Positions 36,688 through 57,493 of a stretch of 64,000 nt of DNA are shown here, piece after piece. How positions within the stretch are numbered: position 1 is the first letter of the stretch; each line of letters starts with the position of its first letter. The stretch is from Aequorivita vladivostokensis (GTDB lineage Bacteria; Bacteroidota; Bacteroidia; Flavobacteriales; Flavobacteriaceae): the NCBI RefSeq assembly GCF_000952855.1, contig NZ_JSVU01000003.1:1-64000 (forward strand), given 5' to 3'. The notes under the pieces are model-generated. The model searched no databases. It was given only the letters and a program-made list of their open reading frames with translations, and had not been told where the DNA came from. Made by a program: the position numbers and the translations under genes.

Positions 36688-36721
36688 TGTATTATAGTTT
36701 ATATTGATTATAAATAAAAGA

Positions 36722-36753
36722 CAAAATTAACGGCTATTTTCTGTTCCACCAAA
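36722..36753 (-). promoter_or_regulatory. promoter of the azurin gene
   Basis: Minus strand TTTG (36753-36750), 20 bases, TAATTTTG (36729-36722), giving a leader of about 30 bases. Full consensus match. Confidence 0.7.
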
Positions 36754-36822
36754 GTTAATTGGCTTCATTTCAAAAAAATTATGAAAATAGTAACATTTAA
36801 AAAGGACAGGGATCTCAGGAAA

Positions 36823-38160: not shown

Positions 38161-38173
38161 AGTAAGTAGCAGC

Positions 38174-40555
38174 TTATTGCTTATTCAAAATTCGTTTGAG
38201 CAACGAACGTTCCTCGCGCGAATAGGCATACCCATATTTATTACCATAACCGAAGTTGTTTAAAGCTACATTATTCAATACCATTGCCACGTTGGTAAGG
38301 CGACCGTCCTCAATGGCATCTTTGGCAAAATCCAACAGGCGCCTATCGGTATAGTCAGCCCGCACTACATAAAGGGTGATATCAGCCAGCTTATTGATCA
38401 AAATGGTATCGGTTACAAGCATTGCGGGCGCGGTGTCCAAGATTATATAATCGTATTGCTTCCGCAGCTCCTCTACTAAAGTGGAAGTGCGTTTCTGCAT
38501 TAACAATTCCGCGGGATTCGGCGGAATGGCACCCGATACAATTATATTTAGGTTTTCGTTATACTCACTCTGTGCCACTACATCTGCTACCTGCAGGTCT
38601 TCATATACAATATATTCCGTAAGACCTTTTTTAGCTTTTAAATGCTCAGGCAAATACCGTTGCAATTGCGGGTTCCGTATGTCGGCACCCACCAAAACTA
38701 CCTTTTTCCCGGTAAGGGCAAGGGTTAGGGCCAGGTTGAATGCTACAAACGTTTTGCCCTCTCCTTTTATGGTGGAGGTTACGATTAGGGATTTCCCCTC
38801 TTCGTTCTTCTCCAACTTATTGATAAACAAATACTGCAGATTGGTCCTGAAAATCCTATAGGCCTCTGCCATTATACTTTGGTCGTTATGCTTTATCAGG
38901 TCTGAGTCTCCTTTCTGCACCTTTGGTATTTCCCCAATAATAGGTATCGATTTAAGATGTCTTTCTACATCCTTTCTTCCTTTAACTTTGGTATTCAATA
39001 AATTAAAGCTATAAATACCGCCGAATGGCACAAGCAGTCCCGCCAAGAGGGCACCCAAATAAATCAGGGATTTTTTTGGCGATACCGGCTCCTGCGGGCC
39101 ATAGGCGCTATCCACTATCTTGGCCCTATCTGCCGTAGCCGCTAGGGCAATGGAGGCTTCCTCCCGCTGTTGCAGTAAAAAGAGGTAAAGTTGCTCCTTA
39201 ATGGTCTGCTGCCGTTCTATGCCCCTAAATATTTTTTCCTTCGCGGGAACCTGCGATATTTTAGAACTGATAATATTCTCCTGCATGTTCAGATCCTTCA
39301 TCGCTATGCGTAAGGCATTCTTTGAATTTTCGAGACTTTCCAATATGCTACTGCGCATTTGGGCTATCTGGTCATTCACGCTTTTCACCACTGGATTTTT
39401 GGGAGTGGAGGTTTGCAGCAGTTTATTTCTATATAAAATAAGTTCGTTATAGTTGTTCACCGCACTGCCCACGCTTTCATTTGAAATACCAATATTGGCT
39501 GGTAAAAGCTCATCCCGATCTGCGTTCTTCATATAGTCGATCATCGTGTTGCTCAACTCCATTTGGGTAGAGACATCCAATTGCCGCTTGTTAAACTCAC
39601 TTGCATTCTCCAAGGTTATTTGGGCCTCGGCCTGAATGTCCGTCAACCTATTGGTACTTTTAAAGTCTTCCTTATTGGTTTCTACCGAGTCCAGCTCCCT
39701 TGTAATAATCTGCAATCGGGATTCAATAAAAGCAGAAGTTTTCTTCGCAATCTCGTTTCGGTCCTGTACCGCATCCTTATTGTATTGCCGTACCAATTCA
39801 TTTAAAAAATCCTCGCCTTTCTCCCTGTTCTGCGTTTGTATGGAAAGTTCTACCACATTGCTCTTGGCATCTGTATTAAGAATGTTCACGCGTTCCTGAA
39901 ATCGCAAGGCCACGGTTTCCACGGAATTATAACTTACTAAAATAGTCTTGTTTTTATATCCCCTAAATTTTTCAGCATCGTCCAGATTTGGGAGGACCGT
40001 AATTACACCAAAGGGTAGTGATATTTGTTCCCCAAAAGAGTAATTGGTTGAAATATTAAGCGGTTCACTTTCCAGATGAAATTCACTCTCAGATAGCATT
40101 TTGAAATAAAGCACGGGGATCGGATCCACGAAACTTTCATCAAAACTTTGGAACTTCACTTCAAAGGGTCTGTATCCATAAAGTTCTGAGGTTTTTATAT
40201 TGCCCATCACTTCATACTTAATATTAAGCTGTAGCTCCTTTACCGTTTCTGAAATGAGCCTCTTTGAATTGAAAATAGCCAACTCATTGTCAATCTGGTT
40301 CGTCTTAAACCGGGAGAGAAAACTGCCAAATTGTGAAAAGGCCGCCATTTCCAGCGGACTCTGGGTTTTTTCATCCTTTATGATAATAGTTGCCTTGCTT
40401 TGGTATAATTGCGGGGTGTAACGCAAATAAAGAAAAGCCAAGACCAAGGCAATGAGTACCCCAATAACAAAAAAGTACCAATATCGGGTATATTGCTCAA
40501 TCATCTCCCTTAGGGAAAGTTCTTCTGCTTCTTGATTTTTTAGGTTGTCGTTCAT
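38174..40555 (-). CDS. polysaccharide co-polymerase and tyrosine autokinase (Wzc)
   Basis: A 793-residue bitopic inner-membrane protein that controls chain length and export. Order: Wzz domain with first membrane helix (about 31-50), long coiled coils (about 240-440), GNVR segment and second helix (about 505-525), then a BY-kinase domain with Walker A TIKGEGKT (about 603), Walker A' VGADIRNPQ, and Walker B YIILDTAPAM (about 710). The tail NNFGYGNKYGYAYSREE holds the Tyr cluster for autophosphorylation. Fused transmembrane and kinase parts are the Gram-negative layout. The locus shows no Wzb phosphatase. Confidence 0.94.
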   Translation of the reverse strand: MNDNLKNQEAEELSLREMIEQYTRYWYFFVIGVLIALVLAFLYLRYTPQLYQSKATIIIKDEKTQSPLEMAAFSQFGSFLSRFKTNQIDNELAIFNSKRLISETVKELQLNIKYEVMGNIKTSELYGYRPFEVKFQSFDESFVDPIPVLYFKMLSESEFHLESEPLNISTNYSFGEQISLPFGVITVLPNLDDAEKFRGYKNKTILVSYNSVETVALRFQERVNILNTDAKSNVVELSIQTQNREKGEDFLNELVRQYNKDAVQDRNEIAKKTSAFIESRLQIITRELDSVETNKEDFKSTNRLTDIQAEAQITLENASEFNKRQLDVSTQMELSNTMIDYMKNADRDELLPANIGISNESVGSAVNNYNELILYRNKLLQTSTPKNPVVKSVNDQIAQMRSSILESLENSKNALRIAMKDLNMQENIISSKISQVPAKEKIFRGIERQQTIKEQLYLFLLQQREEASIALAATADRAKIVDSAYGPQEPVSPKKSLIYLGALLAGLLVPFGGIYSFNLLNTKVKGRKDVERHLKSIPIIGEIPKVQKGDSDLIKHNDQSIMAEAYRIFRTNLQYLFINKLEKNEEGKSLIVTSTIKGEGKTFVAFNLALTLALTGKKVVLVGADIRNPQLQRYLPEHLKAKKGLTEYIVYEDLQVADVVAQSEYNENLNIIVSGAIPPNPAELLMQKRTSTLVEELRKQYDYIILDTAPAMLVTDTILINKLADITLYVVRADYTDRRLLDFAKDAIEDGRLTNVAMVLNNVALNNFGYGNKYGYAYSREERSLLKRILNKQ

Positions 40556-40659
40556 AACGTAATCTACTGGACAATTTTAAAGGCTTTAGATATGAAATTG
40601 CCTATTCAACTTTTTTGCAATAATGGGCCAACGTATTTACAAGCGGATTCTTGGGCGTA

Positions 40660-41448
40660 CTATCTAAAAATAATGGCCATGGCTGATAGAAGCAGCGAGG
40701 CAACGCTCACGTAAATGGCGGTATTTCTATTAAAGCTGCTGCTTTGTACCTGTGCCCTATTTGGTTCTACATAAACCACATCATTCTGTTGCAGATAATA
40801 ATATTCGCTATTTAAAACATCGGCACTTCTGAGGTCCAAATACTTATAGTTTTTGGTTTTGCCATCGTCGCGTATCACCAATACATTATCCCTTCTTCCA
40901 TAGAGCGTCAAATCTCCCGCTAGGCCAAGGGCTGCGGGCAGACTAAGGCGTTCCCCCTCAAAATTATAGGTGCCGGGCCTATTTACTTCGCCCAACAAAC
41001 TAACCTTAAAATTTAAGATCCGGATAGTAACTATCGGGTCTTTTACATATTCTGAAATACGCTGGGTCAACATATCACTTAGTTCCGTCCGTGTTAAGCC
41101 CGCCACCTTTATTTTGCCAAGAACAGGAAAATCGATGGTTCCATCCTGGGCAGTAAGATAAGCTTGTTGCTGGTTGTTCGCATTATAGCTAAGCCCTGTC
41201 GTTGTTTCCAATGCAGGTCTTGTTTCGCTCATCAGGTTAAAGGGACGTACCGCATTTAAATCGTATGCCGAAACCACGATACTCAACAGATCGTCGGGCT
41301 GTATTTTGCTATTTTTTTGAATGGTATCCAATAGGCGCTGCCCTTCAGACAGATCCTGAAAATATACAATCTTTTCTGAAGATACGCAGGATACGCCAAC
41401 CGTAACGAGTACAGAGAGTATAAAAAACCTAATTAAAAATTGTCTCAT
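40660..41448 (-). CDS. polysaccharide export lipoprotein (Wza type)
   Basis: A 262-residue outer-membrane export protein. Lipobox VSC at residues 19-21, poly-sugar export domain (QPDDLLSIVVSAYDLNAVRPF near 50, DGTIDFPVLGKIKVAGLTR near 105), a SLBB domain (SLLGEVNRPGTYNFEGERLSL near 150) and a C-terminal hydrophobic helix (YVSVASLLLSAMAIIF) that probably forms the membrane pore. It is shorter than E. coli Wza (379 residues) as usual in Bacteroidota. It has its own promoter 11 bases upstream; wzc follows after 104 bases. Confidence 0.93.
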   Translation of the reverse strand: MRQFLIRFFILSVLVTVGVSCVSSEKIVYFQDLSEGQRLLDTIQKNSKIQPDDLLSIVVSAYDLNAVRPFNLMSETRPALETTTGLSYNANNQQQAYLTAQDGTIDFPVLGKIKVAGLTRTELSDMLTQRISEYVKDPIVTIRILNFKVSLLGEVNRPGTYNFEGERLSLPAALGLAGDLTLYGRRDNVLVIRDDGKTKNYKYLDLRSADVLNSEYYYLQQNDVVYVEPNRAQVQSSSFNRNTAIYVSVASLLLSAMAIIFR

Positions 41449-41458
41449 AACTTTTTTG

Positions 41459-41490
41459 CAAATATAAACTTTTCTAATGCCCTCCCTAAA
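41459..41490 (-). promoter_or_regulatory. promoter of wza-wzc-wzi
   Basis: Minus strand TTTA (41490-41487), 20 bases, TATATTTG (41466-41459), ending 10 bases before the wza ATG. With the terminator at 41610-41632 it separates the export genes from the synthesis genes. Confidence 0.58.
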
Positions 41491-41602
41491 GGAATAAGGC
41501 TTTTAACCTAGAGAATTGTGTTTTTAATCTATAAAACTAATGCGTTACATCACCTTCTCTTCTGTTTTTATGACTATAAAACCATTTGCTACACACCTTA
41601 AA

Positions 41603-41632: not shown

Positions 41633-41658
41633 CTCGGCATTAAAAATATACTTTCCAA

Positions 41659-43584
41659 TTAATTCTGATGATGCAGATCCAACATCTGATACTCGGAATT
41701 TTGACTTATAAACTCTGGCACTAGCTCCTTGATCCTCATCACCACTTCCGTTTTCTTGGTTTGGGTAGTAGCCTGCACAATAGCCTGTATCTTCATATTC
41801 ACACCATGAAAATCCCCTACCGGTACTTTGGAGACCAAGATCTTGGAATGGAAGGTAGGCAAGGTTTGCGCGGTATCATTTAACAATTCCTCATACAATT
41901 TCTCCCCAGGTCGCAAACCGGTTATTTGTATATCAATATCCTTATAGGGCTTAAAACCAGACAATTTAATCATTCGTTCGGCCATATCGAGAATTTTTAC
42001 GGGCTTGCCCATATCAAAAATAAATATTTCGCCTCCGTTGCCCATTGTACCTGCCTGTAGGACAAGTTGGCAGGCCTCAGGGATGGTCATAAAATATCTT
42101 ATAATATCCTTATGCGTTACCGTTACCGGGCCACCGGCGGCTATCTGCCTTCTAAAGTGGGGAATCACCGACCCATTGGAGCCCAAAACATTACCAAAGC
42201 GGGTAGTGATAAATCGGGTATGGGTGCCAATTTTCTCCTGAAGCGATTGCACATACATTTCCGCAGCCCTTTTGGACGCGCCCATTACATTGGTGGGGTT
42301 CACGGCCTTATCGGTTGATATCATAACGAACTTGTCTATCCCGTGCTGCACTGAAAGATTTGCGAGGTTTACCGTTCCGCTTATGTTTACTCCTACCGCC
42401 TCATAAGGATTTTTTTCAATCAACGGCACATGCTTATATGCGGCCGCGTGGAATACCAAGTGAAACTTGAAGGAAGTAAAAATCATCTCCAACCGCTCAA
42501 TATTTCTTACATCGGCAAGCACGGTCGTAAAATTCAGGTCGGGAAAATTTTGCTCCAAATAAAGCTCCATTTCATAAAGTGCAGATTCGGCATTGTCCAG
42601 CACCACTATCTCCGATGGATTGAACATAGCCAATTGCTTCACAATTTCACTACCAATGGAGCCGGCGCCGCCTGTTACCAAAATGGTCTTATTTTCCAGA
42701 TCGTTCTTGATGATTTCGGTATCTATTTCAATAGGATATCGGTCCAGTAGATCCTCAATTTCTATATGCTTTATCTGGGTCTCCAGGTCTTCTTTTTTAT
42801 TCCAATTCTCAACTGAAGGCATATTGAATACCTTTAGCTCGTTCGCCAAGGCAGCCTCCACGATCTCATTTGTTTCAGAAACCGATAAGGAATCGCGAAC
42901 CATCAAGATACCGTCAATTTTATGCTTAACCATAAGAGCTGAAAATTCTGTGGAGTCCTTATGGATGGGCGTTAAAAAAACAGGTTTCCCCAATACATTT
43001 AAGCTTTTGTTTGAACTATCCTCTGAAACGAAACCCACCAAATGGAAGGATTGATCAGATTCTGAGGTTAGCGCTCTTCCCAAATTTATGGTCTGATTGT
43101 CCATGCCAACAATAACCACCCGTTTTTTCAAATTCCCACTGTTCATTCTACGCAGGTATTGGTAGGATTCCTTTACTACTATCCTAAAGAATAACAGGAA
43201 GGTAAAGGAGAGAAACATATAAAGAATAGCAGCCGTAGTGAGAAATATTTTTTCATCCGTAAAGCTGAAATAGGCCGTATTGAATACAATCACCGAAAAT
43301 GCAGTCAAAAAGGAAGCCGCAGCTACCCTAAACACGTCGGTAAATGTGGAGTGGCGAACTATGCCCGCATAAGTTCTAAAAATATAAAAGAAGAAGACGT
43401 TCATGCCTATAAAAAATGCAGCGCGCCCCCAAAGGGGCCAAACGGTCTGAAATTTTAAAGGGGTTCCCTCCAAAATTAAATAGGTAATCCCAAAAGAGAC
43501 CAAACATATAAAAATATCCAGCAGAAAAACTGCCCAACGGGGTAAATAGCGTTGGTTCAATAAACCTATGGCTTTGGTTCGCAT
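41659..43584 (-). CDS. PglF/WbpM-type UDP-sugar 4,6-dehydratase
   Basis: A 641-residue membrane enzyme that turns UDP-GlcNAc into its 4-keto-6-deoxy form, the first step to bacillosamine-type sugars. Order: four membrane helices (about residues 12-130), a CoA-binding-like Rossmann domain (about 140-255), and the SDR domain with LVTGGAGSIGSEIVKQL (about 285) and STDKAVNPTNVMGASKR (about 410), where Met replaces the usual active-site Tyr as in this family. C-terminal RPGEKLYEELL is typical. I start at ATG 43584; a TTG at 43620 would add 12 residues. A -7 element TATATTTG (43649-43642) lies upstream. Confidence 0.93.
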   Translation of the reverse strand: MRTKAIGLLNQRYLPRWAVFLLDIFICLVSFGITYLILEGTPLKFQTVWPLWGRAAFFIGMNVFFFYIFRTYAGIVRHSTFTDVFRVAAASFLTAFSVIVFNTAYFSFTDEKIFLTTAAILYMFLSFTFLLFFRIVVKESYQYLRRMNSGNLKKRVVIVGMDNQTINLGRALTSESDQSFHLVGFVSEDSSNKSLNVLGKPVFLTPIHKDSTEFSALMVKHKIDGILMVRDSLSVSETNEIVEAALANELKVFNMPSVENWNKKEDLETQIKHIEIEDLLDRYPIEIDTEIIKNDLENKTILVTGGAGSIGSEIVKQLAMFNPSEIVVLDNAESALYEMELYLEQNFPDLNFTTVLADVRNIERLEMIFTSFKFHLVFHAAAYKHVPLIEKNPYEAVGVNISGTVNLANLSVQHGIDKFVMISTDKAVNPTNVMGASKRAAEMYVQSLQEKIGTHTRFITTRFGNVLGSNGSVIPHFRRQIAAGGPVTVTHKDIIRYFMTIPEACQLVLQAGTMGNGGEIFIFDMGKPVKILDMAERMIKLSGFKPYKDIDIQITGLRPGEKLYEELLNDTAQTLPTFHSKILVSKVPVGDFHGVNMKIQAIVQATTQTKKTEVVMRIKELVPEFISQNSEYQMLDLHHQN

Positions 43585-43651
43585 GCGTAATCGCTCTAAA
43601 AATTTGTTATTATGAGGCAAAGTTCGTAGGATTTGGGACTACAAATATAGC

Positions 43652-44788
43652 TTAATTATCGATTAACTGCATTAAAACATCGTTAATCTTCACTTTTTCT
43701 TCAATCCTAAGGTTCGAGCCCGAAGGCAGGCACAAACCAATCTCAAAAAGATTTTCGGCCACCGTATCGCCATAATATGGCGCGTCCTTAAAAACCGGTT
43801 GCAAGTGCATCGGCTTCCATAACGGTCTGCTCTCAATATTATTTTCCGCCATGGCCACACGCAGATCTTCATTGGAAAACCCGCTGATCTTTTTATCCAC
43901 TAGAATGCAGGAGAGCCAATGGTTTGAAAAGAAATCGGATGTGGGTTCCGAAAAAACCTTCACGCCACCTGCCCTTCCAAAAATCTCCTTATAAAACTGG
44001 TTCATTTTTCTTCGCAAGCCTACGTGTTTGTCCAAGACTTCCATTTGCCCTCGGCCTATCCCTGCCGAAATATTGCTGAGCCTGTAATTATAGCCTATTT
44101 CAGAATGTTGGTAATGCGGTGCGGCATCGCGCGCCTGGGTTGCCAAGAAGATTGCCCTTTCCTTGTGTTTTGGATTTCGGGAAACCAAAGCGCCTCCGCC
44201 CGAGGTAGTTATTATTTTGTTGCCGTTAAAGGAAAGGATTGAAATATCGCCAAAGGTGCCACATTTTCGGCCCTTATAGGTGCTGCCCAATGCTTCCGCG
44301 CTATCTTCTATTATGGGGATTTCATATTTTTCGGAAATCTTCTTTATCGCATCAACTTTATAGGGCATTCCGTAAAGATGTACGGCGATTATTGCTTTGG
44401 GTTTTTTCCCTTTTGCGATTCGGTCCTTGATTGCCTCTTCCAAATAATTTGGGCAAATGTTCCAAGTCTCAGGCTCGCTATCGACAAAAATGGGGGTCGC
44501 CCCTTGATACACAATGGGATTTGCCGAGGCCGAAAAAGTCATACTCTGGCAGATAACCTCATCGCCTCTTTCCACGCCCAATAAAATAAGAGCCAAATGT
44601 ATTGCTGCTGTACCCGAGCTTAATGCTGCAACGTGGCTTCCATGGCCAAGATAACTTTCCAATGACTTCTCAAAACCTACCACATTCGGCCCCAAGGGCG
44701 CTACCCAGTTGGTCTGAAATGCCTCGTTGACAAAAGCCTGCTCCGCGCCGCCCATATGTGGGGAGGAAAGATATATTTTTGAGTCCAT
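43652..44788 (-). CDS. DegT/DnrJ/EryC1 family sugar aminotransferase (PglE-like)
   Basis: A 378-residue PLP-dependent enzyme that adds an amino group at C4 of a UDP-4-keto-6-deoxy sugar. The PLP lysine is in LSFNGNKIITTSGGGALVS (about residue 190); other marks are LSSGTAAIHLAL (about 58), EDSAEALGSTYKGRKCGTFGD and YNYRLSNISAGIGRGQ. It directly precedes the dehydratase, its supplier of substrate. A promoter-like sequence lies 117 bases upstream, after an 11-bp repeat array. Confidence 0.93.
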   Translation of the reverse strand: MDSKIYLSSPHMGGAEQAFVNEAFQTNWVAPLGPNVVGFEKSLESYLGHGSHVAALSSGTAAIHLALILLGVERGDEVICQSMTFSASANPIVYQGATPIFVDSEPETWNICPNYLEEAIKDRIAKGKKPKAIIAVHLYGMPYKVDAIKKISEKYEIPIIEDSAEALGSTYKGRKCGTFGDISILSFNGNKIITTSGGGALVSRNPKHKERAIFLATQARDAAPHYQHSEIGYNYRLSNISAGIGRGQMEVLDKHVGLRRKMNQFYKEIFGRAGGVKVFSEPTSDFFSNHWLSCILVDKKISGFSNEDLRVAMAENNIESRPLWKPMHLQPVFKDAPYYGDTVAENLFEIGLCLPSGSNLRIEEKVKINDVLMQLIDN

Positions 44789-44904
44789 TAATTTGATGTT
44801 GGGGAAATATATTTAAAATTTCATTTACAGTAATATCGCATAAAGCTTACCCTATAATGAGGTAACAGCATAATATCTAATAGTATCGCACCTTTAAAAG
44901 GGCG

Positions 44905-44935
44905 CAAAGTTAAGAAATAATATGACGACATTAAA
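44905..44935 (-). promoter_or_regulatory. probable promoter of the aminotransferase-dehydratase pair
   Basis: Minus strand TTTA (44935-44932), 19 bases, TAACTTTG (44912-44905). It gives a leader of about 110 bases. Confidence 0.5.
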
Positions 44936-45004
44936 TGATAAGGGATTGACAAATTTATTCTATCCCTCAAATTTAATATTCTGTGCGAACCATATAAATA
45001 TTTT

Positions 45005-45065
45005 AGCTTTTAAGTAGCTTTTGAGTAGGCTTTAAGTAGCCTTTGAGTAGCCTTTGAGTAGCTTA
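45005..45065 (-). repeat. 11-bp direct repeat array
   Basis: Five consecutive 11-mers on the plus strand (AGCTTTTAAGT, AGCTTTTGAGT, AGGCTTTAAGT, then AGCCTTTGAGT twice), followed by a partial sixth. The period is close to one DNA turn. It sits about 70 bases upstream of the -33 of the probable aminotransferase promoter. Confidence 0.85.
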
Positions 45066-45189
45066 AACCTACCTCAACGCCAATGGATACAGCTCGAACG
45101 TAGGTGAAGACCTTCCGAAAGTAGCTAGATTAGTTTTGAACCATACATAGAAACAGCTGCGCAACATTAAAAATTAATTGAGAAAAAAT

Positions 45190-45753
45190 TTACTTCGTCA
45201 AAAAGAGCCACATAATCCTTAGGTCTTCCGCAAACGATCTATTGTAATAATAGTCCAAGTTCATTCGTACCTTGTCGGGAAAGATAACCTCATCATTGTA
45301 TTTTAGGGGATCCGTCTGTTCTTTCAAAAGGGCTTCCTCATTATAATATTTTAAAGCCGCCTTACTGATCAAACCCGGTTTCAGCTCCAATATTTTTCTT
45401 TCCTCCCCCTCCAGTTTATCGTAATATCCGGGAATATCGGGACGTGGGCCCACAAAACTCATTTGTCCAAAAAGGATATTTAGCAGTTGCGGCAACTCGT
45501 CCAATTTGGAACGCCGGAGAAAATTTCCATATTTTGAAACGCTCCCACAACAAGTTTGTAATGTCCGTATCTTAAAAATGGTAAATTGTTTGCCATATTG
45601 GCCCACCCTTGGCTGGCAAAAAAGAGCCTTCCCCGTATCAAAATAGGCGAAAAGCAATAACAAGAGTAGTAACCAGCCAAAAATCAGGAGACCAATTATC
45701 GAAAATGCTATGTCGAAGATCCTCTTGATAGAAATATTATTGTTGGTTAGCAA
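45190..45753 (-). CDS. phosphoglycosyl transferase (PglC-like sugar transferase)
   Basis: A 187-residue monotopic phosphoglycosyl transferase that loads a sugar phosphate onto undecaprenyl phosphate. Layout: one membrane re-entrant helix ([20 protein letters not shown], about residues 10-30), [23 protein letters not shown] with the catalytic Asp-Glu, and [17 protein letters not shown]. The end [21 protein letters not shown] is typical of Bacteroidota members beside DegT genes. It starts at TTG 45753; no ATG is available in frame. It has few residues outside the catalytic core. Confidence 0.88.
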
Positions 45754-45892
45754 TTTTTAAATGGGTTGGGTATTAAGTATCACAGAGAGCAACCTGTCCT
45801 AAATGCAGGTCAAAGGGGTAGTATAAATGCAGCTAAGATCTTTTTTAAACTTTCTAAAATACAACTTAAAGTATTGAGTCCGCATTCTTACC

Positions 45893-45961
45893 TCAACCTA
45901 TCACCCTGCCGGGATTCCCAACCACTACTGTGGCCTCGGGAACATTATGGATAATGGCGAT
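45893..45961 (-). pseudogene. 3' fossil of a PglD-type hexapeptide acetyltransferase
   Basis: On the minus strand the frame from 45961 to the stop at 45893 reads IAIIHNVPEATVVVGNPGRV then IG. This is the closing segment of left-handed beta-helix acetyltransferases (NeuD/PglD type), whose usual ending is like VPEGATVVGNPAKVIG. An in-frame TGA lies immediately upstream (45964-45962) and no other part of such a gene is visible. About 21 codons of roughly 210 remain. The place, next to a PglC-like gene, is where pglD commonly lies. Confidence 0.78.
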
Positions 45962-45986
45962 TCAACTTTTATTTATGGGATAAAAT

Positions 45987-46997
45987 TTAATTAACTCTTA
46001 ACAGTCGATCACACTTGGAGAACATAATATCCTCTTTATAGTTTATAAATTTTTCAATGGTATTACCTCCTCTTAACCATTCCAAGTAAATCGCAGCGGT
46101 ATTTACCCCAGCCTCATGGGAAAATGGGTAGCCGCCTCCAAAACGTGGATTGAGTTCAAGAACATATAGCTTTCCTTCTTTCTCTAGTATATCGCAATCT
46201 AAATTGCCGAGATGGTTTAAATTATCCCCTATACATTTACCAATAGCATCAAATCGACTATCAATTATAGAAATGGCTTTATCCGTTTCACCAGAACGCA
46301 TTGATAGTTTCTGTCTAACAAAGTTACCAACGTAATTACCTTCAAAATCATTTAAAACATCCATACCAAATTCTTTTCCTATGATTCTTTCCTGTATTAG
46401 AATAGCGCGATTTACATCATCCTTACTTGCTTCCGCTAGAATTGTTCGGTTTAATTTTATAGTTTGAAGTTCATAGGCCAAATCCAACTCTCTCACATTT
46501 TCAGCAAAATCAATACCAATCGAGGCACTTCCCCATCTGGGCTTTAAAACTAAAGGAAACTTGAGCTCTCCAGATTCAATTGCTTTTTTTGCTTCATCAA
46601 AGTCAATAAAGGTTTTTGGAGATTTTAATCCATTGGCTTCCAGAAATTGTACAGTTTTCCATTTATCAAAAGCAATTTCTATGGTCTCCCGGTTAGGAAC
46701 GATTAATTTTGCACCGGTTTCTTCCAATTCTAGCTTATGAATTGCCAATATTGGCAATTCCAAATCGTTCAAAGAAATTACCGCATCGATTAAATTATCT
46801 TTTATAGCCGATTTGAGAATTCTAATATAATCTGGATCATAAATAGGGGGAACCTTAATGGCCACATCAGCATCAATCAAAGCTGGTGCTGTCAAATCCA
46901 TATCCGTCGCATATATAGTACCTACGCCATTTAAAGCTTCTTTAAAATAGTTTATCAAATAGTTACGACGACCTGCACAAGTGAATAAGATATTCAT
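45987..46997 (-). CDS. ATP-grasp domain protein (CarB-like ligase)
   Basis: A 336-residue ATP-grasp ligase that should join a carboxylate to an amine or similar nucleophile through an acyl phosphate. The N-terminal pre-ATP-grasp fold starts MNILFTCAGRRNYLINYF; ATP-binding blocks are FPLVLKPRWGSASIGI (about residue 150), ILIQERIIGKEFGMDVL (about 200) and LYVLELNPRFGGGYPFSHEAG (about 275) with Mg-binding Glu and Asn. It ends the GNAT/PLP/ATP-grasp group, 4 bases from the PLP gene. Such enzymes in polysaccharide loci can add an amino acid or carbamoyl-like group to a sugar, but the substrate is not readable. Confidence 0.85.
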   Translation of the reverse strand: MNILFTCAGRRNYLINYFKEALNGVGTIYATDMDLTAPALIDADVAIKVPPIYDPDYIRILKSAIKDNLIDAVISLNDLELPILAIHKLELEETGAKLIVPNRETIEIAFDKWKTVQFLEANGLKSPKTFIDFDEAKKAIESGELKFPLVLKPRWGSASIGIDFAENVRELDLAYELQTIKLNRTILAEASKDDVNRAILIQERIIGKEFGMDVLNDFEGNYVGNFVRQKLSMRSGETDKAISIIDSRFDAIGKCIGDNLNHLGNLDCDILEKEGKLYVLELNPRFGGGYPFSHEAGVNTAAIYLEWLRGGNTIEKFINYKEDIMFSKCDRLLRVN

Positions 46998-47001
46998 TTC
47001 T

Positions 47002-47892
47002 TTATTTAGCTAAAAAGTTAAAAGTACCACCAGTATGCCAGAATAAAATCCTCCCTTTAAGTTTGTTTTCCTTAATAAACTTTTGCATCCCAAAAAATGC
47101 TTTACCGGAATAAGTTGTGTCTAGGATAAAACCAAAGTCTTTAATAGAGTTCAACGATAGGCTGTCTAGCTCATAATTGCTTTTTGCATAACCGCCACAT
47201 AAATATTCATCGAGAACAATCGCTTTGCGCATGTTATTTTTAATATTATATTTAGAGCAGAGTTCATTATAAAACTCTTGAACCACATTTTCAGCGTGAG
47301 CGGAATTTCGACCAACAGAAATACCGATGACTGATGTATTATGAAAATCGAATTTATCCAAACCCGCCATAATTCCCGCCTGAGTTGATCCAGTCCCTGA
47401 AGCAAGAAAGATATAATCGGGGTGCCAATTTTCAGAAACTGTGTAATCCTTTAAGACTTTAATTGCTTCAATATAAGCTAGCCCTCCTTCCATTGTATGC
47501 CCTCCACCCCATATATAGTATGGATTAAATCCAGAATTTGAATAGTCATCCATTGCGTGATCCATTAAAATACTAATATCTGAAGGCTCTTTTGCGAAAA
47601 CAATCTTAGCCCCTGAAAGGCGGATAACCTTTGCATTTCCAGATTCGCTATTATATCGCTCCTTATCCCCGTGTAGTACAAAGGTACATCTCAACTTATG
47701 TCGTGCAGCAAATATTGCCACTGCCCTACAATGGTTGGATTGAATACCCCCCGTAGTAATTATACTGTCATACTGATCACATAAAATTGTTTTGCCTATA
47801 TAATCCATCTTCCGGCCTTTGTTTCCACCGCCTAGGCTGGGGTATAAATCATCACGAAAAACGGCCAGATTTAAATCTAATTTTTGAATCAT
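47002..47892 (-). CDS. PLP-dependent enzyme of the D-cysteine desulfhydrase/ACC deaminase family
   Basis: A 296-residue fold type II PLP enzyme. Motifs are FRDDLYPSLGGGNKGRKM (PLP Lys in GGNKGRK, about residue 24), ITTGGIQSNHCRAVA (about 47, phosphate-site and stacking residues) and LASGTGSTQAGIMAGL (about 165). The 20 or so N-terminal residues of free-standing relatives are missing; the frame starts with an ATG one base after the GNAT stop. In this place it probably makes or racemises an amino acid for the neighbouring ATP-grasp ligase rather than degrading cysteine. This is inference. Confidence 0.82.
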   Translation of the reverse strand: MIQKLDLNLAVFRDDLYPSLGGGNKGRKMDYIGKTILCDQYDSIITTGGIQSNHCRAVAIFAARHKLRCTFVLHGDKERYNSESGNAKVIRLSGAKIVFAKEPSDISILMDHAMDDYSNSGFNPYYIWGGGHTMEGGLAYIEAIKVLKDYTVSENWHPDYIFLASGTGSTQAGIMAGLDKFDFHNTSVIGISVGRNSAHAENVVQEFYNELCSKYNIKNNMRKAIVLDEYLCGGYAKSNYELDSLSLNSIKDFGFILDTTYSGKAFFGMQKFIKENKLKGRILFWHTGGTFNFLAK

Positions 47893-48438
47893 CTAGCACA
47901 GAATAATCTCATCATTAATAACCTCATATGCGAAAGCATCTTTTTTTAGGTCATCCTCCAAGCATCCCATATAATAGCGGTCTATTAAACCTGACTCCCG
48001 AACTACTTCCTGCCTTAAGATACCCTCAACCTTATAACCAATTCTTTCGCACATTTTAATTGATGCAATATTATCTGCATCAATAAATGCCCAAATTTTA
48101 TTTAAAATTCCAATTTCGAAAGCATAAATAGATTTTAAGAAAAGAGTTCTTGTGCCAATTCCTTTTCCCTTATAATTTGGATCCACTATGGTATAAGATT
48201 CTCCTTTACGTAATTTGGGATCTATTCCTGTCAATCCATCCATTGCGCAGACAACTCCATCTTCTTCGATAACAAAATCCATTCGAGTATCGTTGCCGAC
48301 ATTATTCCTAAACCAATCTTGAGTTTTCTCTAATGTAATTGGAGGAACAAAATGCATTGTTTCATAAACTCTCGGATCATTCATCCATTGAACTCTTAGT
48401 TCTAAATCATCAAGTTTTAACCTTCTCAACTTATACAT
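47893..48438 (-). CDS. GNAT family N-acetyltransferase
   Basis: A 181-residue acyltransferase of the RimJ/RimL-like GNAT subgroup. The start LRRLKLDDLELRVQWMNDPRV is typical of sugar-amine GNATs of the PseH kind; the acetyl-CoA motif is VDPNYKGKGIGTRTL (about residue 88) and the closing motif is IWAFIDADNIASIKMCERIGY (about 115). It may acetylate a 4-amino sugar, replacing the lost PglD, or an amino acid. It abuts the PLP gene and follows the second phosphoglycosyl transferase by 3 bases. Confidence 0.88.
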   Translation of the reverse strand: MYKLRRLKLDDLELRVQWMNDPRVYETMHFVPPITLEKTQDWFRNNVGNDTRMDFVIEEDGVVCAMDGLTGIDPKLRKGESYTIVDPNYKGKGIGTRTLFLKSIYAFEIGILNKIWAFIDADNIASIKMCERIGYKVEGILRQEVVRESGLIDRYYMGCLEDDLKKDAFAYEVINDEIILC

Positions 48439-48441
48439 AAT

Positions 48442-49065
48442 TTATTTCTTTATTGTTCGACTTCTATCAATATCTAAAGGGTTGCCTAATTTACCAGGTA
48501 TAATTTCCACCTTTTCTGCTTTTAAAACGTTGATTACAGTTTTAGTTAAGATTTGGATATCCAATCGTAGTGATAATTCTTTCGCATACTTCACGTCCAT
48601 TTCCAACCGTTCGTTCCAACCTAAAAAATTACGCCCACTTATCTGAGCCAAACCAGTTATACCAGGCTTAACAGTATGTCTCAATTTTTCCCTAGCGGTA
48701 TAAAAAGGAAGGTACCTTTCAAAAAGAGGTCGAGGTCCTATCAAACTCATATCACCCTTCAAGATATTTATTAACTGTGGAATTTCGTCCAAAGAAGTTT
48801 TTCTAACAAAAGCGCCGATTTTAGTAAGGCGTTGGGCGTCAGGAAGTAAATGTCCTTCCAAATCCTTTTTATCGTTCATACTCTTGAACTTGATTATGCT
48901 AAAAATCCTTTCATTTTTCCCAGGTCGTTTTTGAAAAAAAAAGGGGGTCCCTTTATTGGCAATCATTAATCCTATCGTTACTATTACAAAAATAGGGGAT
49001 AGAATTATAAGGCCGAAAAATGCCGCCAAGAAATCAAACGTAGGCTTAACAATATTTCTATACAT
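48442..49065 (-). CDS. phosphoglycosyl transferase (sugar transferase)
   Basis: A 207-residue PglC-type enzyme and the second in the locus. Re-entrant helix FDFLAAFFGLIILSPIFVIV (about 10-30), IIKFKSM (about 60), RKTSLDEIPQLINILKGDMS and LIGPRPLFERYLPFY (about 100-125), then TVKPGITGLAQISGRN. It overlaps the WbuB-like gene by 8 bases. In E. coli O26-type loci a L-FucNAc transferase likewise sits by the fnl genes, so this enzyme probably starts the repeat unit. Confidence 0.92.
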   Translation of the reverse strand: MYRNIVKPTFDFLAAFFGLIILSPIFVIVTIGLMIANKGTPFFFQKRPGKNERIFSIIKFKSMNDKKDLEGHLLPDAQRLTKIGAFVRKTSLDEIPQLINILKGDMSLIGPRPLFERYLPFYTAREKLRHTVKPGITGLAQISGRNFLGWNERLEMDVKYAKELSLRLDIQILTKTVINVLKAEKVEIIPGKLGNPLDIDRSRTIKK

Positions 49066-50257
49066 TTATTTTTTCTACAATTAGGTTATAACTTCTTTCC
49101 ACTAAATATTCATTCTGCAATAAGTTCCAAGACCGATCCCCCAATATATCTAAATTATCTGCACATAGCTTCGAAATTTTAACTTGAATGCCGTTTGCAT
49201 CTCCAGCTTCTACCCAATATCCACATTTGGCTTCCTCTATAATTTTTCCAATATCTGTATTTATATCTGTTGCCGCCAAAACGGGCATTTTCATTTCTAA
49301 ATATGCGAGAAGACGGGAAGGGAAATTAGGAATGGTAAAATCTTTGTGCAAAAAGATCATTCCTACGTCACAAGCGGCAAGGAGGACGTCGTATTCATCC
49401 CTTGGCAAACCGGATAGCAAGGTAGCGTTGGTTGGTTTATTTTGATTAAACCAGATCTCTATTTTCTTAAATTGAGTACCGCTTCCTACCACTAAAATAT
49501 GGGCTAGGGGTTCTTTAAGGTCTGAAATAGTTTCTATCAAAAAATCGATACCTTGAGGAATACCTAAATTACCGCCGTAAACGAAAATTCTCTTATCAAT
49601 AGGTATGTTGTATTTATTTTTAATCTTTACTCTCTCTTCTTCGCTGTATTCAATAAATTTAGGTTTTATCGTATTAGGATTCACCTCTACTTTATTCCTT
49701 GATATATCTGGATTATGCTCAAGAACAAATTTTTTATTGGCTTCAGACATACATCCAATAGTATCTGAGATCTTATAAAGACGCTTTTCTTTATTTACGA
49801 AGGTTTTATGCAACAGTCCTCCTTTTTTCATCATTCCCATATCCACTGCATTTTGTGGGAAAATATCTTTCAACAATAGATATGAATATGCTCCATCACG
49901 TTTTTTTATAAAATCGATGACCTTGGAAAACGTAATGGGAGGAGTTGAATACAGAACTAAATCAAAATCAACATTTTTTATATACTTTTTTATTGCCGAT
50001 AAAAATTGACCTTCAATAAGGATTTGGCCCAATCCTTTTTCTAGCACATTGGTTTTTGTAAGATTAAGAGATTGTACGTTTAAAATATTTGCTTTTCCCT
50101 CTTGGGTAAAGGACGTTTTGGTTTTATGCCGTCTTTCAACCGGAGCAACTATATAGACATTATGACCCTGCTCAATAAAATGATTTAGGAGGTCTTGATA
50201 AATTCCTCTCTTTTTCAGCGTGGTAATATTGACCATGGTTAGAAATAGAACATTCAT
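49058..50257 (-). CDS. glycosyltransferase family 4 (WbuB-like)
   Basis: A 399-residue cytosolic GT-B transferase. The N-terminal start VLFLTMVNITTLKKRGIYQD, a FVYGGNLGIPQGIDFLI block (about residue 225) and FPSRLLAYLEMKMPVLAA (about 315) fit the WbuB/WcaI-like group, which adds L-FucNAc to a lipid-linked sugar. The placement right after the UDP-L-FucNAc genes supports that. It lies 9 bases after wecB. Confidence 0.87.
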   Translation of the reverse strand: MNVLFLTMVNITTLKKRGIYQDLLNHFIEQGHNVYIVAPVERRHKTKTSFTQEGKANILNVQSLNLTKTNVLEKGLGQILIEGQFLSAIKKYIKNVDFDLVLYSTPPITFSKVIDFIKKRDGAYSYLLLKDIFPQNAVDMGMMKKGGLLHKTFVNKEKRLYKISDTIGCMSEANKKFVLEHNPDISRNKVEVNPNTIKPKFIEYSEEERVKIKNKYNIPIDKRIFVYGGNLGIPQGIDFLIETISDLKEPLAHILVVGSGTQFKKIEIWFNQNKPTNATLLSGLPRDEYDVLLAACDVGMIFLHKDFTIPNFPSRLLAYLEMKMPVLAATDINTDIGKIIEEAKCGYWVEAGDANGIQVKISKLCADNLDILGDRSWNLLQNEYLVERSYNLIVEKINV

Positions 50258-50266
50258 AATTATTTC

Positions 50267-51406
50267 CTATTTATTGTCTTGCCAAACCACTCGGTTAATA
50301 TAATCTGTGTAGGAAATAATAATGCGAACCATTTTTTCCGAAACATTGGGCATACTATAGTCTGATACTTGTCTGAAATTGCGGCTTTCTCCCAATTGTT
50401 GCTTTTGTAATTGTACTAAGCCTTGAAGAATACGTTCAGTATTTAAACCTACCATCATAACAGATGCTTCTTCCATTGCTTCGGGCCGTTCGTGTGCTTC
50501 ACGAATGTTTAAGGCTCTAAAATTGAGAATGGAAGATTCCTCACTTATTGTACCAGAATCCGATAGAACAGCGAAGGAATGCTTTTGAAGGGCATTGTAA
50601 TCGTGAAAGCCCAAGGGTTTTAGGAACTGAATATTTTTATGGGTTCCTACTTTCCTTTTCTCAATCATATTGCGAGTACGTGGATGGGTAGAAAAAATAA
50701 TAGGATAATCGTATTTCTCAGCTATGGTGTTTAAACAGTCGATTAAACCCTTAAAGTTTTTTTCTGAACTTATATTCTCTTCACGATGGGCAGAAACGAC
50801 GAAGTATTTATTTTTTTCCAAATTTAATTTAGACAAAACATTGGAAGATTCAATTTCTGAGGCATAATTATTTAAAACCTCAAACATGGGGGATCCGGTT
50901 TTTATGATTCTATCTGCTGGCAACCCTTCGCGCAATAAATACTCCCTTGCTATATCACTGTAGGTTAAGTTTATATCGCTAATATGGTCAACAATTTTTC
51001 TATTGGTTTCTTCAGGTACTCTTTGATCAAAACATCTGTTTCCGGCTTCCATATGAAAAATGGGAATGCGGCGTTTCTTGGCGGCTATAGCGCATAAGCA
51101 AGAGTTTGTATCGCCCAAAACTAAAAATGCATCCGGTGCAACTTCTTCCAATACTGGATCTATATTTATTAGTATTTGTCCCGCTGTTGTTGCGGCATTT
51201 GGGCCAGCAGCATTTAGAAAATAGTCAGGTCTGCGGATGCCTAGGTCTTCAAAAAAAACTTCATTTAATTCATAATCGTAATTTTGACCCGTATGCACCA
51301 AAATGTGTTCTATGGCCTCAGAGGAGTCTAAGGCAATTACCACTCTTGATAATCGTATTATCTCAGGGCGGGTGCCCACTACTGTCATTACTTTTAATTT
51401 TTTCAT
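50267..51406 (-). CDS. wecB: UDP-N-acetylglucosamine 2-epimerase family enzyme (CapG/FnlC type)
   Basis: A 379-residue non-hydrolysing 2-epimerase. Family marks are VGTRPEIIRLSRV (about residue 10), VHTGQNYDYELNEVFFEDL (about 38), FLVLGDTNSCLCAI (about 95), HMEAGNRCFDQRVPEE (about 118) and SDSGTISEESS (about 285). With CapE and CapF beside it, its role is probably the last step to UDP-L-FucNAc rather than UDP-ManNAc formation. It follows capF by 51 bases. Confidence 0.93.
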   Translation of the reverse strand: MKKLKVMTVVGTRPEIIRLSRVVIALDSSEAIEHILVHTGQNYDYELNEVFFEDLGIRRPDYFLNAAGPNAATTAGQILINIDPVLEEVAPDAFLVLGDTNSCLCAIAAKKRRIPIFHMEAGNRCFDQRVPEETNRKIVDHISDINLTYSDIAREYLLREGLPADRIIKTGSPMFEVLNNYASEIESSNVLSKLNLEKNKYFVVSAHREENISSEKNFKGLIDCLNTIAEKYDYPIIFSTHPRTRNMIEKRKVGTHKNIQFLKPLGFHDYNALQKHSFAVLSDSGTISEESSILNFRALNIREAHERPEAMEEASVMMVGLNTERILQGLVQLQKQQLGESRNFRQVSDYSMPNVSEKMVRIIISYTDYINRVVWQDNK

Positions 51407-51457
51407 TCTATATTCTTTAAAGTCAGCGAATTAAAGCGGTTTTTGGGATTTACAAAG

Positions 51458-52576
51458 TTACACTTCTTCAAAATAAGTATCTGCATCCTCCGGATCATAA
51501 AACTCATTAATCCAGAAATTGGTGTATAATACTTCATCTCCAATATTCTTTATGTTGTGTGTGTACCAAATAGGCATATCAACATAGGCAGGTTCATTCC
51601 CATCTAAATAGAAATCCAGTACTTCATCGGTTCCTATCTTTCGCAGTTGAATTAGGGCCTTGCCTTTAATTACCGCGAAACGTTCTATTTTGCGGGTGTG
51701 AAAGTGATTGCCTCTGGTTATTCCCGGCACCGTAGTAGAAAAGGAGACCTGCCCTCCTACTCCTAAACGTATCACCTCTACAAAAGATCCTCTTGGGTCG
51801 GTGTGTTGGGTAAATTTTACCGGGAAGTAATTGGCAATATCCATATAACAACGATAGGTGTTGAATAAGTTTAATTCGAAAGTATTGTTGAGAGATGGTA
51901 TTTCTCCTCTGTCTTGGTATTGTGATTTATAGTTTTGAAGGAGATCCAATAACTCAGATACCTTAGCTTCCGAAGTGTGAGCTACGGTATATAAAGCTTC
52001 ATTCTTTCTTTCGCGAATTACCTTTAATATCTCTGCTACCAACTCTCCTACATATATAAGTTTTAAATCACCATCTACTTGGATTTCGGGGGTTTCCCTA
52101 TTTGCGATTTGATGGGAAAAGGTTGCTACCACGGAATTGTAATATGGATGCCCGAAGGGGCCAAATACATTGGGAATAACCATCCCAGTAAAAGTGCTTT
52201 TGGCCTCTTTTGCCCATTCTACAAATCTCTCCCGACCTTCTTTCTTTGATTTGCCATAGGGATTATCCCTCTCCTCCTGAGAAGAAGATGACATAATTAT
52301 ATGGGCTTTACTTTCAGTACGGTTTAAGGAAGCTATAAGTTTTTGGACCAGCTCTAAATTTGTTTTGTATATAACCTCTGGGTCATTATGGCGGTTCATT
52401 GCTGCAAGGTGGACAATGACATCACATTGGGCAACGAAAGAATCCATTTCCTTCTCGTTGGTAAAATATTTTTTTTGAAATTCAACACGTGTAAATTCCT
52501 CAGGATATAAACCTAAAGTATTGTACAAATGTGTGCCAACAAAGCCATGTTGGCCGGTAATTCCTATTCTTAACAT
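51458..52576 (-). CDS. bifunctional UDP-sugar reductase/epimerase (CapF/FnlB type)
   Basis: A 372-residue protein, matching the size of S. aureus CapF (369). N-terminal SDR reductase with GITGQHGFVGTHLYN (residues 5-19) and YGKSKKEGRERF (about 130), then a C-terminal cupin (about 255-370) with the zinc-site GNHFHTRKIERFAVIKG. It performs two steps on the CapE product on the way to UDP-L-FucNAc. I start at ATG 52576; the frame upstream to 52624 has no family match and runs into a repeat element. Confidence 0.92.
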   Translation of the reverse strand: MLRIGITGQHGFVGTHLYNTLGLYPEEFTRVEFQKKYFTNEKEMDSFVAQCDVIVHLAAMNRHNDPEVIYKTNLELVQKLIASLNRTESKAHIIMSSSSQEERDNPYGKSKKEGRERFVEWAKEAKSTFTGMVIPNVFGPFGHPYYNSVVATFSHQIANRETPEIQVDGDLKLIYVGELVAEILKVIRERKNEALYTVAHTSEAKVSELLDLLQNYKSQYQDRGEIPSLNNTFELNLFNTYRCYMDIANYFPVKFTQHTDPRGSFVEVIRLGVGGQVSFSTTVPGITRGNHFHTRKIERFAVIKGKALIQLRKIGTDEVLDFYLDGNEPAYVDMPIWYTHNIKNIGDEVLYTNFWINEFYDPEDADTYFEEV

Positions 52577-52597
52577 ATTATATTCTTTTAAGGTTTC

Positions 52598-52720
52598 TGG
52601 CAGATACTTCGACAGGCTCAGCACAGGTTATCGCAGATTTAAATACCGCGGATGTCCGCTGATTTTTCTAATTATCTGCGTAAATCTGCGAAACCAATCC
52701 GCACAAATCTGCGATAAACC
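52598..52720. repeat. structured intergenic element with inverted ends
   Basis: GGTTATCGCAGATTT (52626-52640) is inverted as AAATCTGCGATAAACC (52705-52720), with only one base inserted. Inside are the hairpin GCGGA-TG-TCCGC and further copies of the motif TCTGCG. Directly upstream is ACTTCGACAGGCTCAGCACAG, which looks like a phrase scattered through many Bacteroidota intergenic regions. The element fills the gap between the cupin gene and capF exactly. Confidence 0.75.
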
Positions 52721-53131
52721 TTACTTTTTAAAATAATCAATATCAAATCGATACTCGTCCTGCACCTTCCCTATCAAATGATCTGCCAATACCAACAATT
52801 TACTAGCTTCCTCCAAAGCCTGAATAGCTGTAACACAACCAGAAGGAATATGCAAAAAATCCAAAGGCCCTTCCTTAACGGTAAAACTTTCTATGGGCAA
52901 TTCCGGATTCGGTTTATCAAATGAATCAATGGCAATAACCTGTATTCGAAAACTACCCTTAATGCAGGCAAACCATCGCTGCTCAATCTTATGTCCCTGC
53001 CAACCACGAACAAAATCAGTATCGGCATTTTCAATGATATAAATACGCTTTATCTCAGAAGCGTCAAAGTGATTATTATAGGAAATAAATCCTCGCCCAT
53101 CTTTATAGATATTGCCCTTTAATAGGTTCAT
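52721..53131 (-). CDS. cupin sugar epimerase/isomerase (WxcM/QdtA-like)
   Basis: A 136-residue single cupin. Visible are VRGWQGHKIEQRWFACIKGSF (about residues 40-60, His and metal-site like) and EGPLDFLHIPSGCVTAIQAL (about 85-105). QdtA/FdtA relatives isomerise dTDP-4-keto-6-deoxy sugars; short cupins also occur in WbuC-like form next to fnlABC. It lies 11 bases after capE and within the L-FucNAc gene group, so it may act on an intermediate of that pathway. Exact reaction is not certain. Confidence 0.8.
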   Translation of the reverse strand: MNLLKGNIYKDGRGFISYNNHFDASEIKRIYIIENADTDFVRGWQGHKIEQRWFACIKGSFRIQVIAIDSFDKPNPELPIESFTVKEGPLDFLHIPSGCVTAIQALEEASKLLVLADHLIGKVQDEYRFDIDYFKK

Positions 53132-53142
53132 AGCGTATTTAT

Positions 53143-54177
53143 TTATTGAACATAGTCTTCTACCTCTTCCCCAAAAACTTCCTTACGGATTAGCGGTAAT
53201 TTAGAGATTAGATTTATTAATCCCTCTACCCCTTGTTGTTCCGCATTATGCGAATGATAATCTTCAATTTTGGAAACATCTTGCTCTCCCTCTGAAAAAT
53301 ACTTTGCATAGTTAAGGTCTCTATTATCGGCAGGTACCCTATAAAAGTCGCCCATATCTTCCGCCTTAATCATTTCCTCACGGGTACAGAGTGTTTCATA
53401 CAATTTCTCTCCATGCCTTGTACCAATTACCGTTATAGGAACTTGCTTACCTGTAATCTCAATCATCGCCTGCGCTAAATTGCCGATGGTACTAGCAGGT
53501 GCCTTGTTTACAAACAAATCACCCGAATTTCCATTCTCAAAGGCAAACAAAACTAAATCAACCGCATCATCCAGCGACATAAAGAACCGGGACATATTTG
53601 GGTCGGTAACCGTAATAGGCTCTCCTTTTTGTATTTGATTTAGAAACAAGGGAATTACAGAGCCACGGGAAGCCATAACATTTCCATAACGCGTTAGGCA
53701 GATATCTGTAAATTCATGGTTTCTAGACTCGGCTATGGCCACCTTTTCCATCATTGCCTTGCTAATTCCCATAGCATTTATAGGGTATGCCGCTTTGTCC
53801 GTACTCAGGCAGATAACCTTTTTTACCTTATTGGCTGCAGCTGCCCGAATTACATTTTGAGTGCCAATAACATTGGTCTGTACCGCTTGCATTGGAAAAA
53901 ATTCACAAGAAGGTACTTGCTTGAGTGCAGCGGCATGAAAAATATAGTCCACCCCGTGGGTGGCAGGTGCTACCGAATCATAATCGCGAACATCACCTAT
54001 ATAATAGCGAATTTTATCATTTTTATAGCGGTTGCGCATATCGTCTTGCTTTTTCTCGTCTCTACTAAAAATGCGGATTTCCTTAAAGTGGTCGGTATGT
54101 AGAAAACGGTTGAGTACTGCTGTGCCAAAGGAGCCCGTGCCGCCAGTGATTAAGAGGATTTTATTTTGTATCTTCAT
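53143..54177 (-). CDS. UDP-GlcNAc 4,6-dehydratase/5-epimerase (CapE/FnlA type)
   Basis: A 344-residue SDR enzyme, soluble, without the membrane part of WbpM types. Nucleotide site TGGTGSFGTAVLNRFL (about residue 10), YIGDVRDYDSV (about 58) and CLSTDKAAYPINAMGISKAM (about 125), in which Met stands for the usual Tyr. The end carries the usual VADNRDLNY-type loop (PADNRDLNYAKYF). It makes the first intermediate of UDP-L-FucNAc. It overlaps the upstream glycosyltransferase by 17 bases. Confidence 0.93.
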   Translation of the reverse strand: MKIQNKILLITGGTGSFGTAVLNRFLHTDHFKEIRIFSRDEKKQDDMRNRYKNDKIRYYIGDVRDYDSVAPATHGVDYIFHAAALKQVPSCEFFPMQAVQTNVIGTQNVIRAAAANKVKKVICLSTDKAAYPINAMGISKAMMEKVAIAESRNHEFTDICLTRYGNVMASRGSVIPLFLNQIQKGEPITVTDPNMSRFFMSLDDAVDLVLFAFENGNSGDLFVNKAPASTIGNLAQAMIEITGKQVPITVIGTRHGEKLYETLCTREEMIKAEDMGDFYRVPADNRDLNYAKYFSEGEQDVSKIEDYHSHNAEQQGVEGLINLISKLPLIRKEVFGEEVEDYVQ

Positions 54178-55189: not shown

Positions 55190-55240
55190 CGCAAGATTTT
55201 CAATTTATTAAACAAAGTAATTTTTCATAAAAGACGTTCC

Positions 55241-57476: not shown

Positions 57477-57493
57477 AAATTTTTATCTAAAAT

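Follow-up and report, generated by a model that had tools for sequence, protein, structure and literature searches.

The short frame at 45893-45961, on the minus strand of the window (the whole 64,000-nucleotide stretch of Aequorivita vladivostokensis DNA analysed here), is a real remnant of a PglD-type acetyltransferase gene beside a pglC-like gene. This fossil is almost certainly the junction scar of a polysaccharide block exchange, with the edge of the exchange at 45930/45931, and the gene content of the incoming block suggests, on balance, that it swapped the chemistry of the N-acyl (R) group carried by a bacillosamine-type sugar. Taken as one whole explanation, the exchange scar together with the chemistry swap is given a probability of about 80%.

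Table 1. Features of the polysaccharide locus around the pglD fossil (window positions).
Feature	Position	Strand	Remarks
PglF-like UDP-GlcNAc 4,6-dehydratase	41659-43620	minus	Intact
PglE-like DegT aminotransferase	43652-44788	minus	Intact
Segment at background identity to G002	44775-45930	minus	About 1.15 kb, with divergent tracts on both sides
PglC-like initiating sugar-phosphate transferase (Bac_transf)	45190-45753	minus	179/186 aa as in G002 (96%), dS 0.15; start codon uncertain
Spacer from fossil stop to pglC-like frame	45754-45892	minus	139 bases, conserved with G002
pglD fossil frame	45893-45961	minus	Reads IAIIHNVPEATVVVGNPGRVIG, then stop; 22 sense codons plus stop
Resident part of pglD fossil	45893-45930	minus	Eleven codons (VVVGNPGRVIG) with the stop, plus two bases of the preceding codon; 34/38 bases as in intact G002 pglD, and continuous with it
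Upstream part of fossil frame	45931-45961	minus	IAIIHNVPEA plus one base; hexapeptide-like, DNA not alignable to G002; probably another acetyltransferase allele
Replaced block	45931-58896		In blastn, the sister locus matches only over 338 bases (68%) in BT1; low GC
ATP-grasp protein (CPSase-like PRK12767 family)	45987-46997	minus	In 1/28 genus genomes (the window's own)
PALP-fold PLP enzyme (D-cysteine desulfhydrase/ACC deaminase family)	47002-47892	minus	Below NCBIfam cut-offs
GNAT N-acyltransferase, PseH/SpeG-like	47893-48438	minus	Below NCBIfam cut-offs; candidate PglD replacement
Second initiating sugar transferase (BT1)	48442-49065	minus	Opens the recurring BT1-GNAT-PALP-ATP-grasp order
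Glycosyltransferase (49058-50257), 2-epimerase/FnlC-like, FnlB-like, FdtA-like and FnlA-like genes	49058-54177	minus	FnlA and FnlB models below NCBIfam cut-offs
Two more Glycos_transf_1 genes	54161-56356	minus	
Wzy-like gene	56340-57476	minus	Wzy_C 27.5 bits, under the 31.7 cut-off
Wzx-like gene	57529-58878	minus	Gene at the block edge; the two wzy/wzx-like genes span 56340-58878

The fossil frame is closed upstream by an in-frame TGA (45962-45964), and positions 45893-45955 encode the last 20 residues and the stop of a PglD/NeuD-type hexapeptide acetyltransferase. In an ungapped comparison with the C-terminal 20 residues plus stop of PglD from the sister genome G002, 15 of 21 positions agree, and the runner-up among all six frames of the whole 64-kb window reaches 8 of 21. 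Of five PglD/NeuD proteins from the genus used as tblastn queries against the region, the three top-scoring ones matched at 70, 58 and 65% identity over 19-20 residues, and residues 177-196 of the G002 protein match at 70%. The window DNA also aligns with G002 from 45930 to 45700, across the pglD tail, the spacer and the start of pglC, with one single-base gap. The original prediction of a hexapeptide acetyltransferase C-terminus on the minus strand is borne out by the G002 match, the tblastn identity and the DNA continuity; the predicted stump is there as well, although it has 22 sense codons rather than 21. The PglD/NeuD catalytic domain is incomplete in the window, since these 22 codons are all that remains before the upstream stop closes the frame. 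A stretch this short might be thought to resemble an acetyltransferase by chance, but the DNA continuity with G002, the position, the homologue in the same slot and the gap between 15/21 here and 8/21 at the next-best site leave that explanation with a vanishingly small probability.

Homology to G002 ends inside the fossil frame. The ten codons at 45932-45961 agree with G002 DNA at 2-5 of 10 bases per step, which is no match, and they score as a hexapeptide C-terminus against a profile built from nine distinct acetyltransferase ends. This score was reached by 11 of 199,852 random genomic windows, the sampled DNA including genuine acetyltransferase ends as well as the fossil. These codons were probably contributed by the incoming DNA, as the end of a different acetyltransferase allele. 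No donor of this upstream part was found in a DNA search with 45893-45989 across 299 genomes of the family; at E <= 0.1 the search reported 80 genomes, all but the window itself with short and weak matches (E 7.7e-4 or worse), and it is blunt enough that G002, despite its 38 homologous bases, is absent from the matches. A degenerate IIHNVPEA pattern was found only in the window's own genome (1 of the 299).

The gene is intact in G002, where a 196-aa protein containing PglD_N (58.0 bits) and Hexapep (54.8 bits) domains is encoded directly upstream of the pglC-like gene and matches the structures of perosamine N-acetyltransferase and UDP-N-acetylbacillosamine N-acetyltransferase (3bss, E 4.6e-29). 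A survey of 28 genomes of the genus, one per species and with the window's own included, placed a PglD-type gene immediately upstream of the pglC-like gene in 12 (G002, G003, G004, G010, G017, G018, G019, G020, G021, G023, G024 and G027), a count that includes the G018 copy, which is partly masked and was not seen whole. With a PglD-type gene there in only these 12, the content of this slot varies between members of the genus. The full pglD expected at this position in related strains is therefore found, in G002 and beyond, with one more genome, G016, in which two transposase-like frames and one unidentified frame separate a NeuD-type gene from the pglC-like gene (L051:8040-9508; judged by eye). 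A second NeuD type occupies the slot in G012 and G014, and a formyltransferase, assigned by Pfam, in G011 and G022. Two genomes with no close pglC-like gene carry a NeuD-like gene (G006) or a formyltransferase gene (G026) after the first transferase. The remaining eight have other content or are not judgeable (G001, G005, G007, G008, G009, G013, G015 and G025); in G001 the slot (L059:10378-13019) contains a GNAT followed by two proteins of ~350 aa with no Pfam match at 1e-5. No second pglD stump was detected by tblastn in 12 other genomes that have no strong PglD/NeuD match (best E 0.62 or worse), in a search that covered loci of about 2.6-3.6 kb, outside which the G016 NeuD gene falls, and that is blind in G008, where only about 0.7 kb of contig is left on the upstream side of the pglC-like gene. 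In G010 the pglC-like gene is itself split into two overlapping matches, one of them with an internal TGA (L034/L037, G010:C6:8033-8553).

The left edge of the exchange is defined by blastn homology to the 35-kb G002 locus, which extends over 36362-41506 (87% identity) and 41658-45930 (82%), and resumes to the right at 58897-60814 (94%) and 62983-63999 (91%), with only short matches between 60815 and 62982. The intervening 12,966 bases (13.0 kb) have a GC content of 34.3%, against 41.5% and 41.4% in the flanks; their outermost genes are the Wzx-like gene on one side and the ATP-grasp gene on the other. Relative to a close relative, the locus thus has conserved flanks, sharp edges and a non-homologous Wzx/Wzy/glycosyltransferase block, as in a specificity-block exchange. 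An exchange junction had been predicted near 45961; the junction is real, with homology ending at 45930 and resuming at 58897, but its place is 45930/45931, and 45961 is merely set by the in-frame stop. Just beyond the right edge of the block lies a gene for an HU-HIG DNA-binding protein (59065-59463), 94% identical in G002.

Three genes of the block, next to the fossil, bear on the fate of the missing acetylation step. The ATP-grasp protein scores 407.7 bits with the CPSase-like NCBIfam model, above its cut-off, and matches the L-amino acid ligase 3vot at 1.5e-5, a family-level similarity. The GNAT fails the curated cut-offs of both PseH (52.5 vs 93.1 bits) and spermidine acetyltransferase (54.8 vs 218 bits). 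Further into the block, the genes at 49058-54177 would serve the synthesis and transfer of UDP-L-FucNAc.

Counting the window's own, 36 of the 299 family genomes sampled have the ATP-grasp gene (E <= 1e-40). Relatives were collected by a profile search of genome contigs from a three-protein alignment, and the best 80 of 150 confirmed relatives were kept. Among these best 80 of 150, a PALP gene directly precedes the ATP-grasp gene in 12 loci, "directly" meaning that it ends within 150 bases, which leaves out loci with an intervening gene such as L155. A GNAT lies between the transferase and the PLP enzyme in six of the 12: L122 (Paenimyroides), L124 (Capnocytophaga cynodegmi), L128 (an Idiomarina MAG), L129 (a Chitinophagaceae MAG), L144 (Patiriisocius) and L181 (Acinetobacter terrestris). 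A formyltransferase takes the GNAT position in one locus (L126; assigned by blastp and Pfam, tblastn having missed it), a hexapeptide/NeuD-family gene stands before the transferase in three (L123, L131 and L193), and no acyltransferase was detected in the other two (L195 and L196). Nine of the 12 have a PglE-like gene no more than 3.5 kb downstream, a count that includes two at 33-35% identity and that of L122, behind an opposite-strand frame. Within the six GNAT loci, the module precedes a PglE-like gene in five, and neither a NeuD-family gene nor a pglC-like match above 45% identity was found in the stretch reaching 3.2 kb upstream and 1.5 kb downstream, the lack of a pglC-like match being a point against the swap reading. 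The recurring order, combined with the varying type of acyltransferase, suggests that N-acyl transfer was retained as a step, with a change in its chemistry. The ATP-grasp protein alone is no PglD substitute, because in two Capnocytophaga loci (L127 and L132) its gene and a PglD-like gene lie side by side. A single 397-aa frame of the Idiomarina MAG (L128:7921-9111) encodes the initiating sugar transferase and the GNAT as a fusion. Another arrangement without an adjacent pglD was seen in 12 loci among the best 80 of 150, in which the transferase and ATP-grasp genes are followed by an opposite-strand gene like the CelD-type acyltransferase (Acetyltransf_6) at L091:7002-8237, with a PglE-like gene further on in 11 of the 12.

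On the resident side of the junction, the original prediction of intact PglF-like, PglE-like and PglC-like genes downstream of the fossil holds: all three frames are whole and adjacent, as in a bacillosamine-type pathway. The PglF-like protein matches the WlaL structure at 9.6e-85, an entry that we take to be PglF, and the PglE-like protein matches the aminotransferases 1o61 (3.3e-89) and 4ztc (1.8e-88), presumably both PglE. For the PglC-like protein, the N,N'-diacetylbacillosaminyl-1-phosphate transferase 8e37 matches at 1.1e-14, with WbaP entries scoring slightly higher. The codon taken as the pglC-like start, TTG at 45753, is TTA in G002.

These flanking genes differ widely in their divergence from G002. 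DNA identity is 0.79 for PglE, 0.76 for PglF and 0.76 for Wza, with dS of 1.8 or more, and 0.86 for Wzc (dS 0.67); the pglC-like gene is the least divergent (DNA identity 0.96, dN 0.016, dS 0.149, values with little power at such a small distance). In 100-base steps, identity over 44800-45899 is 0.92-0.98, with one exception of 0.69 that carries a repeat-length difference. The pglC-like and pglE-like genes lie 400 bases apart; a tandem array of an 11-base unit (5.4 copies) is found between them at 45004-45064, where G002 is 22 bases shorter. The background identity between the two genomes is 95% over 4.8 kb elsewhere, as taken from one 8.15-kb query in which a further 2-kb match has 77%, and 0.93-1.00 per step over 59100-60699 in the right flank. 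Because the segment holding the pglC gene and the pglD tail is near this background level while the neighbouring tracts diverge, it reads as a 1.15-kb survivor of shared ancestral sequence between recombined tracts. The reverse history, in which the order ATP-grasp to PglE is the resident one and a small piece with pglC and an already truncated pglD end was inserted into it, draws on loci L124 and L144, where PglE directly follows the ATP-grasp gene, and on the greater divergence of PglE, PglF and Wza than of pglC from G002. It is nevertheless highly improbable, given that the pglC segment matches the sister genome at the shared background level and that the ATP-grasp gene, within a low-GC block, occurs in a single one of the 28 genus genomes.

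The acetylation step of the pathway had been predicted to be lost. In that form the prediction is not supported: pglD is gone, but the block that displaced it brings a GNAT in a recurring module. The step was probably exchanged rather than simply lost, because in five of the six GNAT loci elsewhere this module lies ahead of a PglE-like gene and no pglD-type gene was detected close by. Under simple loss, truncation of pglD would have left the 4-amino group free or the PglF/PglE/PglC branch dead. The resident pglD is broken, and the genome has 14 NeuD_NnaD matches at E <= 10 with none in the window, yet the PglE-, PglF- and pglC-like frames have stayed intact, the pglC-like dN and dS values point the same way within their power, and the recurrence of the GNAT module before PglE-like genes also argues against it; simple loss is accordingly unlikely. 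Only one of the 14 matches, the intact NeuD-family gene G000:C5:28929-29519, exceeds the curated cut-off (166.6 vs 160.8 bits), and could on that score supply the acetylation in trans. This source is very unlikely, however, since the gene adjoins a DegT aminotransferase gene two genes from gmd (597.5 bits), in a cluster that we take to be of the GDP-perosamine type, and its product is only 28% identical to G002 PglD. Nor does this copy elsewhere in the genome account for the fossil as a chance match.

Under the favoured reading, exchange with a swap of chemistry, the 3' end of the resident pglD was left behind when the 13.0-kb specificity block was replaced by recombination. The left crossover fell inside the conserved pglD end, where the incoming DNA probably offered a matching acetyltransferase end, and most of the 5' part of the chimeric acetyltransferase gene would have been deleted, then or already before; a crossover within homologous gene ends followed by loss of the 5' part is proposed because codons 45932-45961 read as the end of a second allele. 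The candidate GNAT, PLP enzyme and ATP-grasp protein would then N-acylate UDP-Qui2NAc4N, the product of PglF and PglE, at its 4-amino group, adding an acetyl or acyl-aminoacyl group in place of the acetyl of PglD. More tentatively, the slot that separates the first initiating transferase from PglE may be a general N-acyl cassette site, and GNAT-PALP-ATP-grasp an undescribed R-group pathway. Its PLP enzyme might make or racemise an amino acid, its ATP-grasp protein ligate this to the 4-amine of UDP-Qui2NAc4N, and its GNAT (elsewhere a formyltransferase or a NeuD-family enzyme) cap the product to give an N-acyl-aminoacyl sugar. The module occurs in both Bacteroidota and Gammaproteobacteria. A narrow literature search, by title and start of abstract, found no description of a polysaccharide module of this composition.

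Through the scar, a surface-polysaccharide switch has one of its edges located with a precision of one or two bases, and the crossover is seen to lie within a gene for an acyltransferase. Both the scar and the swap are of kinds already known, and the GNAT-PALP-ATP-grasp module is less explored. The window shares PglF-, PglE- and PglC-like enzymes with the Pgl pathway of Campylobacter jejuni, and relatives have the PglD-like gene too; unlike that pathway, the window locus is of the Wzx/Wzy type, has a second initiating transferase and carries a broken pglD. In Salmonella O-antigen clusters, short remnants (wzy, H-repeat) likewise mark a recombined cluster or a superseded gene, according to the available portion of the source (PMC3715488), although they concern other genes, another phylum and other sugars, and were compared between serogroups, whereas here the comparison is between sister genomes of a genus. 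In K loci of Acinetobacter baumannii, alternative genes (qhbAB or qhbCB, with gdr) similarly lead to QuiNAc4NAc or QuiNAc4N-hydroxybutyrate on the same sugar; the accessible part of that account names no GNAT-PALP-ATP-grasp module (PMC9676051), and the A. terrestris locus L181 has one. O-polysaccharide loci of Flavobacterium psychrophilum (the pglD homologues wfpG/wfpH/wfpI, together with pglE, pglF and wfpB) also resemble the window, with R-group genes exchanged on Qui2NAc4NR (PMC6519341, as far as its available text goes). There, UDP-Qui2NAc4NH2 is said to be the product of PglE and PglF, the transferase is a PglC homologue, the differing R groups are predicted to be attached by pglD homologues, and fnl genes occur with a WbuB homologue, a scheme that the fnlA/B/C-like genes and glycosyltransferase of the window fit (PMC6519341, same portion). 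The F. psychrophilum variants named in that text are pglD homologues, one with ACP-pathway genes, whereas the window has a cut pglD with GNAT, PALP and ATP-grasp genes. Strains with differing R-group genes differ in LPS antigenicity in that species (PMC6519341, in the text available), and the recurring module described here may alter the N-acyl group of a bacillosamine-type sugar.
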